DNA from: Dehalococcoidales bacterium
GTDB taxonomy: Bacteria; Chloroflexota; Dehalococcoidia; Dehalococcoidales; RBG-16-60-22
DNA length: 12,791 nt
Direction: 5' to 3'
Assembly: GCA_030615475.1 (NCBI GenBank)
Contig: JAUWZF010000009.1
Span: 1-12,791, forward strand
The notes under the pieces were generated by a model. It saw only the letters and a list, made by a program, of their open reading frames with translations, searched no databases and was not told the DNA's origin. The position numbers and the translations under genes were made by a program. Shown here one piece after another: positions 5,248-12,645 of the stretch (the first letter of the stretch is position 1; each line of letters begins with the position of its first letter).

Positions 5248-6237
5248 ATGACTGAAATTACACCGGGAATCCACTGGATTAAGCTGCCGATAGATGCCGT
5301 GGGAGGGCCGGCGCATATCAATTCTTACCTTATTCGCGGGGATATTGGATATCTCCTCGTCGATTCCGGCTGGAACACGGACTCATCGTTCGGCACTATG
5401 CATAACAGTCTGGTGAAAAACGGGCTGGGATTCGAGGATATTTCTCAGATACTGGTCACCCACGTCCACCCCGACCACTACGGCATGGCCGGTCGTATCA
5501 AGAAACTCTCCGGGGCCACCATCGCCATGCACCCCATCGAAAAAGAGCTCATCGAACCCAGGTATGTCCACATGGAGGAGCTGCTCCACCAGACCGACCG
5601 GATGCTCGTCGATAACGGCTTGCCCCACGACGAGATGGTCAAACTGAGGGACGCTACCGTGGGACTGGAGCAGTATATCATCCCCACCCCACCCGATATC
5701 ACCCTCCGCGACGGGGAAACCGTCACCACCGGCGAGTTCACCTTCCGGGTTATCTGGACACCGGGTCACTCGTCGGGGCATATATGCCTTTATGAACCTG
5801 AGAAGAAAATCCTGCTCTCCGGCGACCACATCCTGCCGAAAATCACGCCCAATATCAGCGTCCACCCGCAGTCCATCGAGAATCCCCTCGGCCGGTATGT
5901 GAAGTCGCTCCAGGAGATGAGGCAGCTGGACGCCGAGCTCATCCTGCCCGGCCATGACCAGCCTTTCACCGGACTCAGGCCGCGCATCGACGAAATTATT
6001 CAGCACCACGAGCAAAGAAACCGCGATATCCTGGCGGTGATGGGGGGCCAGGCCAGAACGACCTACCAGATAGCCCAAGAGATAACGTGGGGAGTCAGGT
6101 CCCGGTGGCGTGACCTGCCCGATTTTCACCGAAGAATGGCCATCTTTGAAACGCTGGCCCACCTGGAGATGATGGCTACCGACAGCCGGATAGATAAGCT
6201 GCCCGGAAAAGGCATTAATTATTACCGGCAAAACTGA
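5248..6237 (+). CDS. MBL-fold metallo-hydrolase with C-terminal winged helix (LACTB2-like)
   Basis: A 329-aa metallo-beta-lactamase-fold hydrolase. The metal motif THVHPDHYG gives H72, H74, D76 and H77. The other ligands are H164 (TPGHSSGH), D183 (SGDH) and H236 (LPGHDQPF), so a complete two-metal (usually zinc) site is present. Residues from about 260 on form a short helical tail (TTYQIAQEI ... ETLAHLEMM) that looks like the winged helix of the LACTB2/hydroxyacylglutathione-hydrolase-like group. There is no signal peptide, so it is cytoplasmic. The substrate cannot be read from the sequence: thioesters, lactones or RNA are possible in the family. The ATG at 5248 follows a purine run AGAGAAGAA. 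It sits just downstream of the MITE-like repeat and 14 bases before the dehydratase-like gene. Confidence 0.92.
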   Translation: MTEITPGIHWIKLPIDAVGGPAHINSYLIRGDIGYLLVDSGWNTDSSFGTMHNSLVKNGLGFEDISQILVTHVHPDHYGMAGRIKKLSGATIAMHPIEKELIEPRYVHMEELLHQTDRMLVDNGLPHDEMVKLRDATVGLEQYIIPTPPDITLRDGETVTTGEFTFRVIWTPGHSSGHICLYEPEKKILLSGDHILPKITPNISVHPQSIENPLGRYVKSLQEMRQLDAELILPGHDQPFTGLRPRIDEIIQHHEQRNRDILAVMGGQARTTYQIAQEITWGVRSRWRDLPDFHRRMAIFETLAHLEMMATDSRIDKLPGKGINYYRQN

Positions 6238-6243
6238 TATAAT
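6215..6243 (+). promoter_or_regulatory. Extended -10 promoter, possibly leaderless start
   Basis: TGATATAAT at 6235-6243 is a perfect extended -10 overlapping the stop codon of the MBL gene. The -35 (TTAATT, 6215-6220, 17-base spacer) is weak. Transcription would start near 6250, at or within two bases of the ATG at 6252, which itself lacks a Shine-Dalgarno. Confidence 0.45.
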
Positions 6244-6251
6244 AAGACCGG

Positions 6252-7271
6252 ATGAAGAAAATCGGCATCACCACTACCGTCCCCGTAGAGGTTCTGATAG
6301 CCGCCGGTTATCAGCCAATCGACCTGAACAACGTCCTCGTTGCCGACCCCGATCCCGGAAGGCTCATTACCATCGCCGAGAGGGCCGGCTTTCCCCTCAA
6401 CTGCTGCAGCTGGATTAAGGGAATCTACGGCGTCTGCCTGGACTACGGTATCAATGATGTCATCTGCGTTACCAGCGGCGACTGCTCCAATACCATCATG
6501 CTCATGGAGACCCTGAAACTCAAAAGTCTGAACGCCGTACCCTTCGCCTACCCGGACAGTCCCTACCCCCACCTTATGCAGCCTAAGCTGGAGGAGCTGG
6601 CAGCGACTCTCGGCACCACGCTGGAAGACGCTGATAAAGTCAGGGACGAACTCAAAGCAGCCCGCGACCTGGCGCTGAAACTGGACGAGCTTACCTGGCA
6701 GCAGAATACGGTCAGCGGTTGGGAAAACCACCTCTGGCTCGTCTCCGCCTCCGACTTTAACGGGGATTTTCGTAAATACCGGCGGGAGTTACAGGGCTTA
6801 TTGGAAGCCTGCTCAAATCGCCAGCCTTACCCCGCCGGACAACTCAGGCTGGCCTACATCGGCGTGCCCTCGGTATATGCCCGCGAGTTATACCCCTTTA
6901 TTGAAAAACACGGCGCCAGGGTCGTCTTTAACGAGGTCCAGCGCCAGTTCGCCCTGCCCGGGCCCGGCAAATCCCTGGCCGAGCAGTATTCCAGTTACAC
7001 TTACCCCTACTCCATCCACGAGCGTCTCAGGGACATAAAAACAGAACTAAACCGCCGGCAGGTGGACGGCGTTATCCACTACGTGCAGGCGTTCTGCCAC
7101 CGCGGCATCGGCGATATTATCTTCCGGGATGCCATCGACCTGCCCGTGCTGACGCTGGAGGGCAACGACGACTTCTTCCTGAACAGCCACATCAAGACGC
7201 GCATCGAGGCTTTCCTGGACATGATACAGCGGAGCCGACAGCGGAAATACAGTCAGGCTCTGAAAAAATAA
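6252..7271 (+). CDS. 2-hydroxyacyl-CoA dehydratase family protein (HgdB-like, lone subunit)
   Basis: A 339-aa protein with the layout of the HgdB/FldC-type D-component (PF06050-like). Cysteines are in typical places: NCCSWIKG (C51, C52), VTSGDCSNT (C78) and VQAFCHRGIGD (C282). In characterised dehydratases three such cysteines hold a [4Fe-4S] cluster used for radical-type removal of water from 2-hydroxyacyl-CoA. The C-terminal part (PVLTLEGND) is also typical. However, the partner subunit and the ATP-dependent activator (HgdC-type) are not in this window, so the activity is uncertain. It might instead act in reductive chemistry or cluster handling. No clear Shine-Dalgarno precedes the ATG; an extended -10 lies just upstream. 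gap follows after 30 bases. Confidence 0.85.
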   Translation: MKKIGITTTVPVEVLIAAGYQPIDLNNVLVADPDPGRLITIAERAGFPLNCCSWIKGIYGVCLDYGINDVICVTSGDCSNTIMLMETLKLKSLNAVPFAYPDSPYPHLMQPKLEELAATLGTTLEDADKVRDELKAARDLALKLDELTWQQNTVSGWENHLWLVSASDFNGDFRKYRRELQGLLEACSNRQPYPAGQLRLAYIGVPSVYARELYPFIEKHGARVVFNEVQRQFALPGPGKSLAEQYSSYTYPYSIHERLRDIKTELNRRQVDGVIHYVQAFCHRGIGDIIFRDAIDLPVLTLEGNDDFFLNSHIKTRIEAFLDMIQRSRQRKYSQALKK

Positions 7272-8415: not shown

Positions 8416-9591
8416 ATGAAGTTAGTTGTTGTTGGCTTCGGACAATGCGGCGGCAGAATCGCCGATGAGTTCGCCCGACTTAATGGAAGAGCCCGTGGTT
8501 TACGCGGGCTAAATATTGTCACCGGCGCCTATGCGGTTAATACCGACATCGCGGACCTGAGCGGACTGAACACCATAAAGTCAGATTACAACCACCGCAT
8601 TCTCATTGGCAACAAAAAAACCGGCGGCCATGGCGTCGGGAAAATCAACGAGCTCGGCGCCGAGATTGCCAGAGAAGACGCCGACAAGGTCATCGAGACG
8701 GTAAGGAACACCAAGCACTTCCAGGAAACGGATGCCTTCCTGCTGATTGCCGGGGCTGCCGGCGGCACCGGCTCCGGCGCGATTTCCGTAATGACGCAGC
8801 AGATAAAGGAGCGTTACGTAGACAAGCCGGTCTACAATCTTATCATCCTTCCTTTCGAACATGAAGAGGCTACCGAGGACAGGACAGTCTATAACGTGGC
8901 CACCTGCCTGAAATCAAGCTACCTGGTTGCCGACGCCATATTCCTGGTCGATAACCAGCGGTACGTCAGCAAAGACGCCTCCCTCAAGCATAACCTTGAC
9001 AAGATAAACGCCTCAATCACGCAGCCCTTTTTTAACCTGCTCTGTGCCGGCGAAGAAAAGAAGTCCAGATACATCGGCGCCAAGATGCTCGATGCCGGTG
9101 ACATCATACAGACACTGGTAGGCTGGACCACCCTGGGCTACGGTCGTTCTCATACCTCGGCACTCAAATCGTTCTTTACCTCAGCCCGCAATTTTAGAGA
9201 CAAAGCATCGGAAACCCAGAAGGGAGTCCAGGCGCTTGACGAAGCTATCAGCGGACTATCGATTAAATGCAATCCCCTGGACTCAAAGAGGGCCCTCTAT
9301 CTCGTTTCCGCCCCTGCCAGGGAAATCAATGTTGACCTGATTAAAGAGCTCGGCACCTATATCAAAAACATGGCCCCGGAAGCAGTCATAAGGAGCGGTG
9401 ACTACCCCAGGGCAAAAGGCTCCATGGACATCACCATAATGCTTTCGGAAATGAGCGATGTGGAAAAGGTCAGGAACTACTTCACCAAAGCCATTAACCT
9501 CATGGTGGAACTCAAGAAGCGCCAGGAAGGCGTGGTAAGCACACAGCGAGGGATTGACATTACGATAAAAGACATTCCCTCGCTGCTATAG
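8416..9591 (+). CDS. Tubulin/FtsZ-superfamily GTPase, non-canonical
   Basis: A 391-aa GTPase of the tubulin/FtsZ superfamily that is not an ordinary FtsZ. Seen in order: VGFGQCGGRIADEF at the N-terminus (T1 loop), VNTD (41-44), and the G-box GAAGGTGSG (113-121), which matches the tubulin signature ending GGTGSG. PFEHEEATEDRTVYN follows (about 146-160). A T7-like loop, MLDAGD (224-229), keeps the two acidic residues that complete GTP hydrolysis in the neighbouring subunit, but has Met where FtsZ has Asn. The protein ends in KDIPSLL, which resembles the FtsZ C-terminal anchor core (DIPxFL) without the usual long linker. It should polymerise with GTP; its role in division or another cytoskeletal task is unknown. 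AGGGTGA (8406-8412) is the ribosome site. CetZ or TubZ kinship cannot be excluded. Confidence 0.88.
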   Translation: MKLVVVGFGQCGGRIADEFARLNGRARGLRGLNIVTGAYAVNTDIADLSGLNTIKSDYNHRILIGNKKTGGHGVGKINELGAEIAREDADKVIETVRNTKHFQETDAFLLIAGAAGGTGSGAISVMTQQIKERYVDKPVYNLIILPFEHEEATEDRTVYNVATCLKSSYLVADAIFLVDNQRYVSKDASLKHNLDKINASITQPFFNLLCAGEEKKSRYIGAKMLDAGDIIQTLVGWTTLGYGRSHTSALKSFFTSARNFRDKASETQKGVQALDEAISGLSIKCNPLDSKRALYLVSAPAREINVDLIKELGTYIKNMAPEAVIRSGDYPRAKGSMDITIMLSEMSDVEKVRNYFTKAINLMVELKKRQEGVVSTQRGIDITIKDIPSLL

Positions 9592-9737: not shown

Positions 9738-10250
9738 TTATCTGGCTATCTTGGAATAGATTTGCCAGGCCTGTTCGATGGTGTCATCGCGTACTTTCCA
9801 GGCTTTACCTATATTCTCTTCACGGACACTGGCAGCCTCAGCTATAGTCGACTCATAAGCTCTACTGGCTGCCTCTTCGGCGCTCCTGAAGGCTTCCTCA
9901 GCCCGCGCTAGTACATTCTCCCGGGCTTTGGCGGCTTTGGCTAACGCCTCATCCCGGTCTTTCATAGCCTGAGCCACTTTAGCCTCATAAGCTCTACTGG
10001 TCTGCTGCTCCGCCCGCTTATAGGCTTTAGCTACCTGCACTTCATTCTCATGGTAAGCCTTGGCGACCTGACGCTCGGCGTCCATGTAGGCAGCGTAAGC
10101 CCTCTCGGCTTGGCTCATAACCTCGTCAAGCGGACTTTTCGGTCGCTCTTCTTCTGCTGCTGGAGTCTCCTCGACCTCCTCAGATGGAGTTTCAGCTTCC
10201 AACTCTACCGGGGTAGAGGACTGCTTGGTTCGCTCTTTCTGGTTAGCCAC
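9738..10250 (-). CDS. Hendecad-repeat helical protein, 170 aa
   Basis: I do not recognise a family. The N-terminal 46 residues are polar, acidic and probably disordered (ELEAETPSEEVEETP). From Q47 to K167 the protein is eleven consecutive 11-residue repeats with no gap, for example AERQVAKAYHE, NEVQVAKAYKR, ALAKAAKAREN and AEEAASRAYES. Repeat position 9 is Y, F or R in all eleven, and position 8 is mostly Ala or Val. Such hendecads make long, nearly straight amphipathic helices, as in some coiled coils and surface-binding proteins. There is no signal peptide or membrane span, so it is cytoplasmic. Translation starts at GTG after a very strong AAGGAGGTG (10255-10263), and it has its own near-consensus promoter, so it is probably abundant. 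It lies downstream of the longer repeat protein on the same strand and is convergent with the tubulin-like gene. Confidence 0.88.
   Translation of the reverse strand: MANQKERTKQSSTPVELEAETPSEEVEETPAAEEERPKSPLDEVMSQAERAYAAYMDAERQVAKAYHENEVQVAKAYKRAEQQTSRAYEAKVAQAMKDRDEALAKAAKARENVLARAEEAFRSAEEAASRAYESTIAEAASVREENIGKAWKVRDDTIEQAWQIYSKIAR
9750..10112 (-). repeat. Eleven tandem 33-base units (11-residue repeats)
   Basis: Residues 47-167 of the 170-aa protein divide evenly into eleven 11-mers, leaving only IAR at the C-terminus. Position 9 reads Y, Y, Y, Y, R, R, F, Y, R, R, Y through the array. The DNA units have diverged, so this is an old protein-level repeat and not a fresh tandem duplication. 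Confidence 0.85.
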
Positions 10251-10455: not shown

Positions 10456-12645
10456 TTAATCCTCTTCTGTATTGGCATCTTCAGCGTCGGTCCCTTTTTC
10501 GCCCTGGGCCTTCTTGGCCTCGTACATCCTGGCCAGGGATTCCAGACGCGCTTCCATTTTGCCCTTGGGCCCTTTGCCCGCTTCCTTCAACCTTTTCTCT
10601 GTTTTGTCTGTTTTTTCTGCCTTATCTTCTTTGTCTACCTTATCCACCGCCTCCGTTACGGCATCTATCGCCGCTTCCGCAGCCTCAAAGGCCACCTCCC
10701 TTTCCCCCTCGACTTTATCCAGCACCTCGGTCAGGGCTTCCTCCGAGATTTCAGTTTCTTCCTCACCCTCTTTTATCTGGCCCTTGGCCAGGGTCTCCTC
10801 ATAGGCCCTAAAGGATGCTTCGGCGGTTTCCCTGGCGACCTGACCGGTAGCTTCGGCCCGACTTATCGCTTCTTTAAAGGCGGATATAGATACTCCGGCC
10901 GCCTCCCTGGCCACCCTGGCTGATGCTTCCGTCGCTTCCTTAACGGCTTTTACCGTTCTCTCTGCCGATTCTCTGGCGGCTTTTATCAGTGCATCCGTCA
11001 CTTCCCTGGCCGTCTTTACCGCAGCTTCAGCCGTCTTCTTGGTCTCCCGGCTTATCTCCTCAGCCCGGGCCATGGCCCCCTGGATTTCCTTCTCCGAAGC
11101 CTCCGATGCCTCCCTGGCAGTAGTAATGGCGGCTTCAATGGCTTCCTGGACGACTCTCATTGACTCTTCGGCGGTCTCTTGAGCTGTCCTGCCTATCTCC
11201 TCGGCTTTAGCTACCGCCTCATCGGACTCCTTCTTTGTCACTTCAACAGCTTCCTGAGCCGCTCTGGCTGATTCTTCGGTGGCCGCTTTAGCCGCGTTAC
11301 TTATCTCCTCCATTCTGGTAATAGCTTTCCGATACTCACTGGCCGACGCCTGGGCATTATCCCTGGCTTCTGTACCTATTTCCTCGGCCCTGGAGATTAC
11401 TTCCCGCGATTTCTCTATTGATTCCTCGGAGGCCTCTTGAGCAGCTCTGGCAGACGCTTCAGCCACCTCCTGGGCTTTCCTCCCCTCTTCTTCCGCCTGA
11501 GCTATCGCCTCCTGAATCTTATTTACCGATTCCTCAGCAGTCTCCCTGGTTTCCCGGCTAACCTGCTCAACCCTGGCTACCGCTTCCCAGAACTGCTTCG
11601 CGGACAGTGCGGCTTCTTCTTTAGCTGCCTTATTTATCGATTCGACCCTGGCTGTGGCTTCCTGCGATACCTTTATTGAGGCCTCGGAGGCTTCTTGAGC
11701 CGTTTTAATGGCTGCAGCTGTCGTCGTCCTTGTTTCCCTGGATATCTCTTCAGCCTTGCGCATTGTTTCCTGGGCAGCCCTTTTTGAGGCCTCATTAGAG
11801 AGCTTGGCTTCCCTGTCAATCGCCTCGACCCGGTTCAGCGTTTCCCGGGATGACCTCTGCGCAGCCTCGGCAACCTCCTTGGCGACCTTGCTTATTGTCT
11901 CCGCCCTGCCAGCCACTTCCTCGGCCGCTCTGGTCGCAACCTCGGCGGCTTCCCGGGTTGATTTACTCGTCTTCTCAGCCCGGCTTACCGTGTCTTTGGC
12001 TGCTTTATTGGTGGCTTCAGCGGCATCCCTGGTTTCCCGGGCCATCCTGCCCGCCCGGCTGGCAGCTTCTTTAGCCGCTTTAATCGATTCGTCGGCGGTC
12101 TCCTTGGCCGTCTTGACCGACGCCTCGGCCGTACTCACCGCTTCCTGTGCCGCTTCTTTCGCAGAATCAGCTGTTTTTTTAGCTTCACGGCTTAACTCAT
12201 CGACACGGCTCAGACCTTCCTGAGACAACATCAGCGCCGACTCCGCCGCGTGCATCGCCTCGCCGCTTATCTTTTCAGCCCGCGCAATAGCCTCCTCAAA
12301 CGCCTTCGCCATCGACTGCGCGGTTTCTTGCGGTCTCCTGGCAACTTCTTCCGCCCGGCTGATGGCTTCATTGGCGGCCCTTATCGCCTCCTCGGCGGCT
12401 TCCCTGGCTTCCTGGCTTATCTTCTCCGCCCGGCTGACCGCCTCCTGTGCCGCTCTGGACGCGGACTCAGCCGCTTCTCTGGACGTCTTGCCAATCTCCT
12501 CAGCCCGGTGTGCCGCATCCATGGCGGTTTTCGTCGATTTCTCGGACGCTTCCCTGGCCGCCCGACTCAGTGTTTCGGCCCGGGCTACCGCCTTTTCGAA
12601 GTCACCGATACTTCCTTCTATATCTTCTTTTAACTCAGGAGACAT
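10456..12645 (-). CDS. Giant Ala/Glu-rich helical repeat protein, 729 aa
   Basis: I do not recognise a named family. After 21 N-terminal residues, residues 22-620 are twenty repeat modules. Each is a 14-residue part like RAEEISREARETAE (two heptads) plus one or more 11-residue parts like ESIRAAQEAIS. Residues 621-729 form a charged tail (VDKVDKEDKAEKTDKTEK ... GTDAEDANTEED). Ala, Glu, Ser, Arg and Lys dominate; large hydrophobics are sparse (I, V or L at module position 5 and near the end) and only one Trp is present. A long amphipathic or coiled-coil helix is expected, without a signal peptide or membrane span. Its 11-mers recall group-3 LEA, apolipoprotein and similar proteins in pattern only. 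ATG at 12645 lies 8 bases after AGAGG; an in-frame TTG at 12648 is an alternative start (730 aa). The role is unknown: a filament, scaffold or lipid-surface coat are candidates. Confidence 0.88.
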   Translation of the reverse strand: MSPELKEDIEGSIGDFEKAVARAETLSRAAREASEKSTKTAMDAAHRAEEIGKTSREAAESASRAAQEAVSRAEKISQEAREAAEEAIRAANEAISRAEEVARRPQETAQSMAKAFEEAIARAEKISGEAMHAAESALMLSQEGLSRVDELSREAKKTADSAKEAAQEAVSTAEASVKTAKETADESIKAAKEAASRAGRMARETRDAAEATNKAAKDTVSRAEKTSKSTREAAEVATRAAEEVAGRAETISKVAKEVAEAAQRSSRETLNRVEAIDREAKLSNEASKRAAQETMRKAEEISRETRTTTAAAIKTAQEASEASIKVSQEATARVESINKAAKEEAALSAKQFWEAVARVEQVSRETRETAEESVNKIQEAIAQAEEEGRKAQEVAEASARAAQEASEESIEKSREVISRAEEIGTEARDNAQASASEYRKAITRMEEISNAAKAATEESARAAQEAVEVTKKESDEAVAKAEEIGRTAQETAEESMRVVQEAIEAAITTAREASEASEKEIQGAMARAEEISRETKKTAEAAVKTAREVTDALIKAARESAERTVKAVKEATEASARVAREAAGVSISAFKEAISRAEATGQVARETAEASFRAYEETLAKGQIKEGEEETEISEEALTEVLDKVEGEREVAFEAAEAAIDAVTEAVDKVDKEDKAEKTDKTEKRLKEAGKGPKGKMEARLESLARMYEAKKAQGEKGTDAEDANTEED
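10786..12582 (-). repeat. Twenty modules of 14 + 11n residues
   Basis: Module lengths from the N-terminus are 25 residues (eleven times), 36, 25, 25, 36, 25, 36, 47, 69 and 25, totalling 599. Every length equals 14 + 11n, with n = 1 (15 modules), 2 (three), 3 (one) and 5 (one). In the long modules the extra 11-mers align with the normal one: module 19 (10861-11067) reads AAVKTAREVTD, ALIKAARESAE, RTVKAVKEATE, ASARVAREAAG, VSISAFKEAIS after its 14-mer. Extra 11-mers occur only in the C-terminal half. Confidence 0.88.

Follow-up and report, generated by a model that had tools for sequence, protein, structure and literature searches.

LONG, a modular helical rod protein family linked to a clade of CetZ-like tubulins in Dehalococcoidia

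We analyzed a stretch of 12,791 nucleotides, hereafter the window (contig JAUWZF010000009.1 of assembly GCA_030615475.1), from a Dehalococcoidales bacterium whose draft genome comprises 1.41 Mb in 265 contigs and is 77.65% complete. The window encodes a 729-residue protein, denoted LONG, whose central rod consists of modules of 14 + 11n residues and is predicted to be helical. Insertions and deletions (indels) between LONG relatives mostly respect the helical register in the rod and ignore it in the tail, which carries a conserved motif, and the LONG gene is linked to that of one clade of CetZ-like tubulins, represented in the window by TUB-D. The reading that we favor, with moderate confidence, is that LONG, together with a smaller helical protein, S170, serves as a coiled-coil scaffold of variable length for a cytoskeleton of CetZ type, built on TUB-D, that exists in addition to FtsZ. 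A first-pass annotation of this DNA had described the repeats only and overlooked their genetic context, a tubulin-like partner gene and a second rod with 11-residue repeats, which matters more.

Modular organization of LONG

The open reading frame (ORF) of LONG lies on the minus strand, from an ATG at 12645 to a stop codon at 10456-10458. Its product contains 169 Ala (23%) and 140 Glu (19%) residues and has a net charge of -40. The following parts were delineated, using structure prediction by AlphaFold2 (AF2) and its confidence score, the predicted local distance difference test (pLDDT):

10456..12645, minus strand: LONG, a modular helical rod protein, whole ORF (ORF, composition, AF2 helix, homologs across Dehalococcoidia)
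12595..12645, minus strand: N-terminal head, residues 1-17, ahead of the first module (GDFEKAV-type start conserved in an 8-sequence alignment)
10798..12594, minus strand: rod of 20 modules of 14 + 11n, residues 18-616 (anchor spacing)
11662..11769, minus strand: 36-residue module (14 + 2x11), residues 293-328 (anchors 297 to 333)
11404..11511, minus strand: 36-residue module, residues 379-414 (anchors 383 to 419)
11221..11328, minus strand: 36-residue module, residues 440-475 (anchors 444 to 480)
11080..11220, minus strand: 47-residue module (14 + 3x11), residues 476-522 (anchors 480 to 527)
10873..11079, minus strand: 69-residue module (14 + 5x11), residues 523-591 (anchors 527 to 596)
10459..10797, minus strand: C-terminal tail, residues 617-729, with a linker, a short helix, the conserved motif and an acidic end (AF2 breaks at 620-635 and 687-693; indels not bound to phase)
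10510..10548, minus strand: motif RLExLARMYEAKK, residues 700-712, a proposed docking helix (conservation; AF2 helix 694-714, pLDDT 76 at 701-710)

The modules were counted from an anchor, the R of R-A-E or the equivalent residue. Anchors are found at residues 22, 47, 72, 97, 122, 147, 172, 197, 222, 247, 272, 297, 333, 358, 383, 419, 444, 480, 527 and 596, and all 19 spacings obey 14 + 11n (25 residues 14 times, 36 three times, 47 and 69 once each). Counting the last 25-residue module, the twenty modules described by the first-pass annotation are thus recovered. Its additional argument, that N-terminal part, modules and tail add up exactly to the protein length, has no force, since the tail is by definition the remainder. 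A plain pattern retrieves 17 of the 20 anchors; the other three, 147 (RVD), 172 (TAE) and 197 (RAG), are weak, were set by eye and were used among the seeds of the anchor profile that we ran on the family. This profile adds two anchors in the LONG tail with spacings of 48 and 25, the first of which breaks the rule. The probability that the five spacings other than 25 all fall on 14 + 11n by chance is about 4e-4 if helical phase has to be kept, which permits 19 of the lengths from 26 to 75, and about 3e-6 without the phase requirement. Identity autocorrelation of LONG peaks at lags 25 (z 14.9), 50, 36, 75, 86, 61, 111 and 11, and small and hydrophobic residues recur with a period of 3.58. The proposal of an almost straight helix pack is fair, as the 25-residue unit with its seven core positions gives 3.57 residues per step, close to the 3.63 residues per turn of an undistorted helix given in the accessible part of PMC9858780.

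AF2, run with 22 sequences, predicts an uninterrupted helix spanning residues 13-619, a linker, a helix at 636-686 and a last one at 694-714, in which the conserved motif lies. The model is of modest confidence, with a mean pLDDT of 57.2 and blocks above 70 at residues 21-80 and 701-710 only. In the motif, R700, L701, L704 and Y708 are invariant in 22 sequences. The strict pattern matches 67 of the 85 sequences (rows) of our family set; 11 of the other 18 carry a variant, such as RLNFLARMY, RLQFLAKMY, RLDFLARTY or RLEFLARKY, and the remaining seven are either truncated at a contig end or doubtful.

Genome searches found LONG homologs across Dehalococcoidia, and the 65 named relatives come from metagenome-assembled genomes labeled Dehalococcoidales, Dehalococcoidia, Dehalococcoides sp. 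or Chloroflexi/Chloroflexota. Protein-database searches returned little, two matches with LONG as query and five with a profile of the family, each search scoring about 8000 preselected candidates. Histidine kinases were among these matches: four metagenome proteins with a histidine-kinase domain (P0002, P0004, P0005 and P0006) have the same 25-residue Ala-rich repeat, apparently as a stalk, with the highest autocorrelation at 25. Another metagenome protein of 499 residues, P0001, starts with LONG-type repeats and continues with unrelated sequence, possibly by misassembly. The Pfam families BORCS6, Alanine_zipper and S_tail_recep_bd scored below cutoff for LONG and were taken as compositional. 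A profile search of the PDB gave 12 sequences at E <= 0.01, most of them named designed proteins, and was not used. Rfam gave no match in the window at gathering scores.

Composition raises the question of whether LONG could be a hydrophilin-like stress protein. LEA (late embryogenesis abundant) proteins of group 3 have charged, Ala-rich, amphipathic helical repeats of 11 residues. LONG might similarly be an Ala/Glu/Lys-rich helix of 11-mers whose folding is induced by drying or by membranes, its tubulin neighbor being accidental. The 11-residue component of its period, its strongly charged, Ala- and Glu-rich sequence and the modest confidence of the monomer fold agree with such a role. However, the basic unit of LONG is 25 residues, not 11, no LEA family was matched in Pfam-A at E values up to 0.1 (PF02987 is presumably the LEA group 3 profile), and neither the conserved head nor the conserved C-terminal motif would be expected of a space-filling protein. 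Since LONG is in addition linked to one tubulin clade and co-occurs with CetZ-like tubulins, as detailed below, we regard the LEA-like explanation as very unlikely.

Helical register of the rod across the family

We ran the anchor profile, seeded from LONG, on 30 family members including LONG itself. Among the 489 spacings obtained, 320 are of 25 residues and 413 conform to 14 + 11n. Another 37 (50, 61, 72, 83, 116 and 171 residues) equal two merged modules, four (75) equal three, and 14 are pairs of half-anchors, 8 + 17, that sum to 25. The other 21 include tail matches and true exceptions, for instance 32 in locus L013 and 40 in L005.

Lengths in the LONG family range from about 425 to 910 residues. 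In pairwise comparisons at identities of at least 55%, the rods of relatives differ by 11 and 22 residues, and also by 4, 7, 14, 18, 25 and 29. At positions about 390-410, differences of 22, 55, 66 and 110 residues occur between relatives, and the 36-residue module 379-414 overlaps this region of extra 11-residue units (about 11401-11478 in the window). As a guard against counting one event repeatedly, indels were then counted in 33 disjoint pairs with identities of at least 45%, which take in 66 of the 85 rows, although their phylogenetic independence is not proven. Doubtful or fragmentary rows (L059.10, L059.11, L088.9 and L029) are in none of the pairs. The tail was taken to start 115 residues ahead of the C-terminal motif; this limit, the 45% identity and the tolerance of 0.65 residue used below are our own choices.

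Once six indels within residues 1-15, counted as head, were excluded, 36 indels of the rod body remained; a few of these adjoin one another and may be single gaps divided by the aligner (30+55+25; 28+103). Eleven residues is the commonest length (10 of 36) and 15 are multiples of 11, as anticipated if the rod changes by such steps; 14 occurs six times, and lengths off 11n include 4, 7, 14 and 29. The strict form of the rule, growth by whole 11-residue steps only, was therefore rejected. By contrast, the idea that the helix face is kept in register was borne out. Among rod indels of up to 60 residues, 30 of 33 deviate by no more than 0.65 residue from an integral number of turns of 3.6 residues, where 38% would be expected by chance (P about 4e-10). 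The choice of period matters, as the count falls to 23 of 33 at 3.5 and to 19 of 33 at 3.667. In the tail, only 13 of 44 indels are within 0.65 residue of whole turns and one of 44 is a multiple of 11. Rod indels being in phase and tail indels not, the helical register of the rod is kept by selection, with 11 residues as a favorite step rather than a law. The rod is thus a natural experiment on the length changes that a helical rod permits, with a register-bound body and an unbound tail.

Signs of the underlying events are visible in the DNA. Tandem Repeats Finder reported 111 overlapping rows in 85 LONG gene stretches, and every period is a multiple of 3. The commonest is 75 bp, or 25 residues (41 of 111), which also speaks against growth by elevens alone, followed by 21 bp (7 residues; 19), 33 bp (11 residues; 15) and 150 bp (9). 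Periods that are multiples of 75 bp occur in 19 LONG genes and multiples of 33 bp in 12. The congeneric locus L006 has a 33-bp repeat in, or directly beside, its extra 22 residues. The genes of the window itself have tandem repeats of 8-9 bp only. Duplication or loss of module-sized DNA units would alter the length of the rod, and selection would mainly keep the changes that preserve the helix face.

Linkage of LONG to TUB-D and S170

Two further genes of the window are assigned to the proposed system:

8416..9591, plus strand: TUB-D, a CetZ-like GTPase of the tubulin/FtsZ superfamily (PF00091, PF21011; clade support 0.997-0.999)
9738..10250, minus strand: S170, 170 residues, a disordered head followed by one hendecad helix (autocorrelation, AF2; adjoins LONG in 51 of 63 loci)

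TUB-D, which is convergent with LONG and S170, matches PF00091 Tubulin with 111.2 bits (cutoff, 33) and PF21011 CetZ_C with 64 bits (cutoff, 21.6). It scores 54 bits against the FtsZ equivalog TIGR00065, far from the cutoff of 295.2, and the window's genome (G000) has a separate FtsZ on contig C246 that scores 411.2 bits, above that cutoff. From these profile scores TUB-D is not the division FtsZ and comes in addition to it. It is the only CetZ-like match in G000. Its best PDB matches, 4b46 and 4b45, are titled cell division protein FtsZ, and we take them to be the Haloferax CetZ structures. In a midpoint-rooted FastTree tree, 56 TUB-D proteins including that of the window form one clade with a support of 0.997, apart from the second CetZ-like protein found in many loci, TUB-U; with extra regions and loci chosen through LONG, the clade has 80 tips and a support of 0.999. 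Two positions (170 and 356) discriminate TUB-D from other tubulins, too few to define the difference between clades. Genome G157 (1.47 Mb) has two FtsZ genes above the equivalog cutoff (C1:327479-328447 and 588463-589440) and two CetZ-like genes.

Linkage was assessed in 63 named loci with LONG (65 minus two tail fragments), which were found through LONG, so that the counts are conditional on its presence. A full-length TUB-D gene lies within three ORFs downstream of LONG in 55 of the 63, including where the other flanks differ. TUB-U is present on the upstream side in 26, and 24 have both. In the usual arrangement, TUB-U, reading leftward, comes first, then LONG and S170, both reading rightward, and then TUB-D, again leftward, with L082 as an exception in orientation. 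The window's contig ends 146 bases upstream of LONG, and TUB-U is thus out of view. As BLAST labeling without a low-complexity filter also tags unrelated coiled coils, e.g., an SMC/Rad50-like ORF in L113, the C-terminal motif and gene position were also used to call LONG. Near the tubulin block of several relatives there also recurs a gene pair found at 5248-7271 (plus strand) of the window, in which a metallo-beta-lactamase (MBL)-fold hydrolase gene lies beside that of HGD-D, the D-component of 2-hydroxyglutaryl-CoA dehydratase.

To get round this condition, a second test used 31 regions from 26 genomes that have a CetZ-like gene and gave no LONG match in the genome search, i.e., 20 of the 40 such genomes in a sample of the class and seven of the eight in a nearer sample, G052 being in both. 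Not all CetZ-like copies of each genome were fetched, and tubulins of at least 340 residues were counted (n = 31), which leaves out a broken copy in L125. Four of the 31 fall in the TUB-D clade: one lies beside LONG (L122), one beside a divergent LONG (L160), one beside S170 only (L116) and one at a contig end (L159). None of the 27 tubulins outside the clade has LONG in the fetched stretch. The LONG genes of L122 (genome G204) and L160 (G043) had been missed by the genome search and were found on inspection, so the LONG counts are lower bounds.

LONG and CetZ-like tubulins also go together across genomes. In the class sample of 294 genomes, LONG was matched in 25, all of which are among the 65 with a CetZ-like match (E <= 1e-30), and in none of the 229 others (Fisher P about 6e-19, kinship ignored). 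In the nearer sample of 61 genomes, 46 have LONG and 54 a strong CetZ-like match; the seven without a CetZ-like match have no LONG.

Such linkage could also be frozen synteny of a conserved block, LONG having an unrelated role, e.g., in nucleoid or envelope spacing. Indeed, a larger block comprising RecR-YbaB-DnaX, TUB, GAPDH, enolase, Pth and LigA is conserved in many loci. However, LONG and TUB-D are together in loci where this block is unseen in the examined stretch (e.g., L059, L065, L066, L070, L081, L089 and L110-L113). Conversely, in L117, L126, L127, L156 and L158 the block is kept, with GAPDH, one or two CetZ-like genes and DnaX, and LONG, S170 and TUB-D are jointly missing; further CetZ-like copies of G309 and G056, unfetched and unclassified, limit this set of loci. 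This behavior makes frozen synteny alone quite unlikely. The joint absence in these five loci looks like a loss together.

The second rod of the locus, S170, is simpler than LONG. Its autocorrelation, computed over 53 homologs, has maxima at 11, 33 and 22, as for plain 11-residue repeats, and AF2 predicts a single helix from residue 40 to 169, with pLDDT of at least 90 in 123 of the 170 residues. In 24 disjoint pairs, helix indels are of 11 (four times), 22 (once) and 6 residues (once), and head lengths vary widely. The Pfam families Sds3 and P35 scored below cutoff for S170 and were taken as compositional; a PDB profile search gave two weak matches, E 0.013 and 0.019, which were not used.

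Aromatic residues are regularly placed in S170 (Y52, Y66, Y77 and W162, invariant in 23 sequences), and hendecads, with 3.67 residues per turn, match the pitch of long helices on membrane surfaces. LONG and S170 might thus be amphipathic surface helices made of apolipoprotein- or perilipin-like 11-mers, forming a coat on a membrane or lipid body and perhaps acting as a membrane tether for the tubulin. However, the face of LONG is mostly Ala and its net charge strongly negative, neither protein matches an apolipoprotein family in Pfam, and the 25/7 pattern of LONG, with its measured period, is closer to a coiled-coil core. On balance, this membrane role appears unlikely.

Proposed role and comparison with known systems

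In the scaffold reading that we favor, LONG would be a cytosolic, Ala-rich rod of 25-residue units, each of two heptads and one hendecad, into which extra hendecads are spliced, and LONG and S170 would form an accessory scaffold of TUB-D. LONG may oligomerize laterally, with the Ala stripe, which has almost no twist, as the contact surface. This would yield a stiff rod with a length of at most about 90 nm, given 1.5 A for each of the 607 residues predicted to be helical. The C-terminal helix RLExLARMY, on its flexible tail, would dock on a partner that is fixed, in all likelihood the filaments of TUB-D, and S170 would be a second, shorter rod in the complex. The LONG family is undescribed and probably part of a little-known bacterial skeleton. 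More tentatively, Dehalococcoidia might possess a tubulin cytoskeleton apart from FtsZ in which a CetZ-type filament has a dedicated rod, its length evolving by modules that keep the register, as a spacer or ruler between filaments, or between filament and envelope; we hold this only as a possibility.

Several points weigh against the scaffold reading. The interaction of LONG with TUB-D is inferred from gene linkage, and that linkage could in part be old synteny. With few exceptions among the loci, the LONG and TUB-D genes converge and hence are not cotranscribed. In three of the 25 LONG-positive genomes of the class sample (G106, G146 and G275), the match is not next to a tubulin gene; these may be other Ala-rich proteins. 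The D-clade tubulin of L116 has S170 and no LONG beside it. Conversely, S170 was not seen beside LONG in 12 of the 63 named loci nor in L110-L112, and it is therefore not essential to the LONG-TUB-D pair. The LONG model is of modest confidence, and a model of the monomer cannot show oligomers. Core positions that are mostly Ala would also suit a lone helix or a hydrophilin, and the C-terminal motif may have a partner other than TUB-D. One protein of G106 (L118:3876-8714, minus strand) has 1613 residues and LONG-like repeats, with no RLExLARMY motif and no tubulin gene in the fetched 11.4 kb.

Bacterial CetZ-like tubulins seem hardly studied, and a partner that accompanies a single tubulin clade throughout a class makes the system testable. 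Our literature searches, for which subscription papers were mostly out of reach, found nothing on LONG or S170, which have no searchable names, and no dedicated partner named for bacterial CetZ-like tubulins. The only solved structures that match the LONG profile are helical bundles (PDB 4tql, 4uos and others), mostly artificial designs; the match is probably compositional and uninformative on ancestry.

Among known systems, archaeal CetZ and a CetZ-like group reported in Chloroflexota-Dehalococcoidia (PMC9871819) resemble TUB-D, which has the Tubulin and CetZ_C domains above cutoff. The accessible part of that paper also reports coiled-coil genes near archaeal tubulin-like genes; LONG, S170 and the paralog split are unnamed in it. 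PMC5102406 refers to three Dehalococcoides proteins, DET0343, DET0589 and DET0636, as FtsZ.

The closest parallels to the rod itself are FilP and Scy, which the accessible part of PMC9858780 describes as Ala-rich bacterial rods with a role connected to growth and division, in which hendecads have extended a heptad pattern. The first-pass annotation had known of no described family with the 14 + 11n rule. This holds at the level of families, since LONG has no Pfam family at cutoff and no NCBIfam match, but not for the principle, as FilP and Scy are described rods of heptads lengthened by hendecads. LONG is likewise a long, Ala-rich rod of heptads and hendecads in its composition, spacings and period. 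It differs from these actinobacterial DivIVA-like proteins by its 14 + 11n unit, its phylum and its CetZ-like tubulin neighbor, and a relaxed form of the GYDxxEVD-type N-terminal (DivIVA) motif, taken from the same source, is present in none of the 85 LONG rows. The Ala-rich hendecad rods of FilP and Scy nevertheless provide a precedent for a protein such as LONG in bacterial cytoskeletons.

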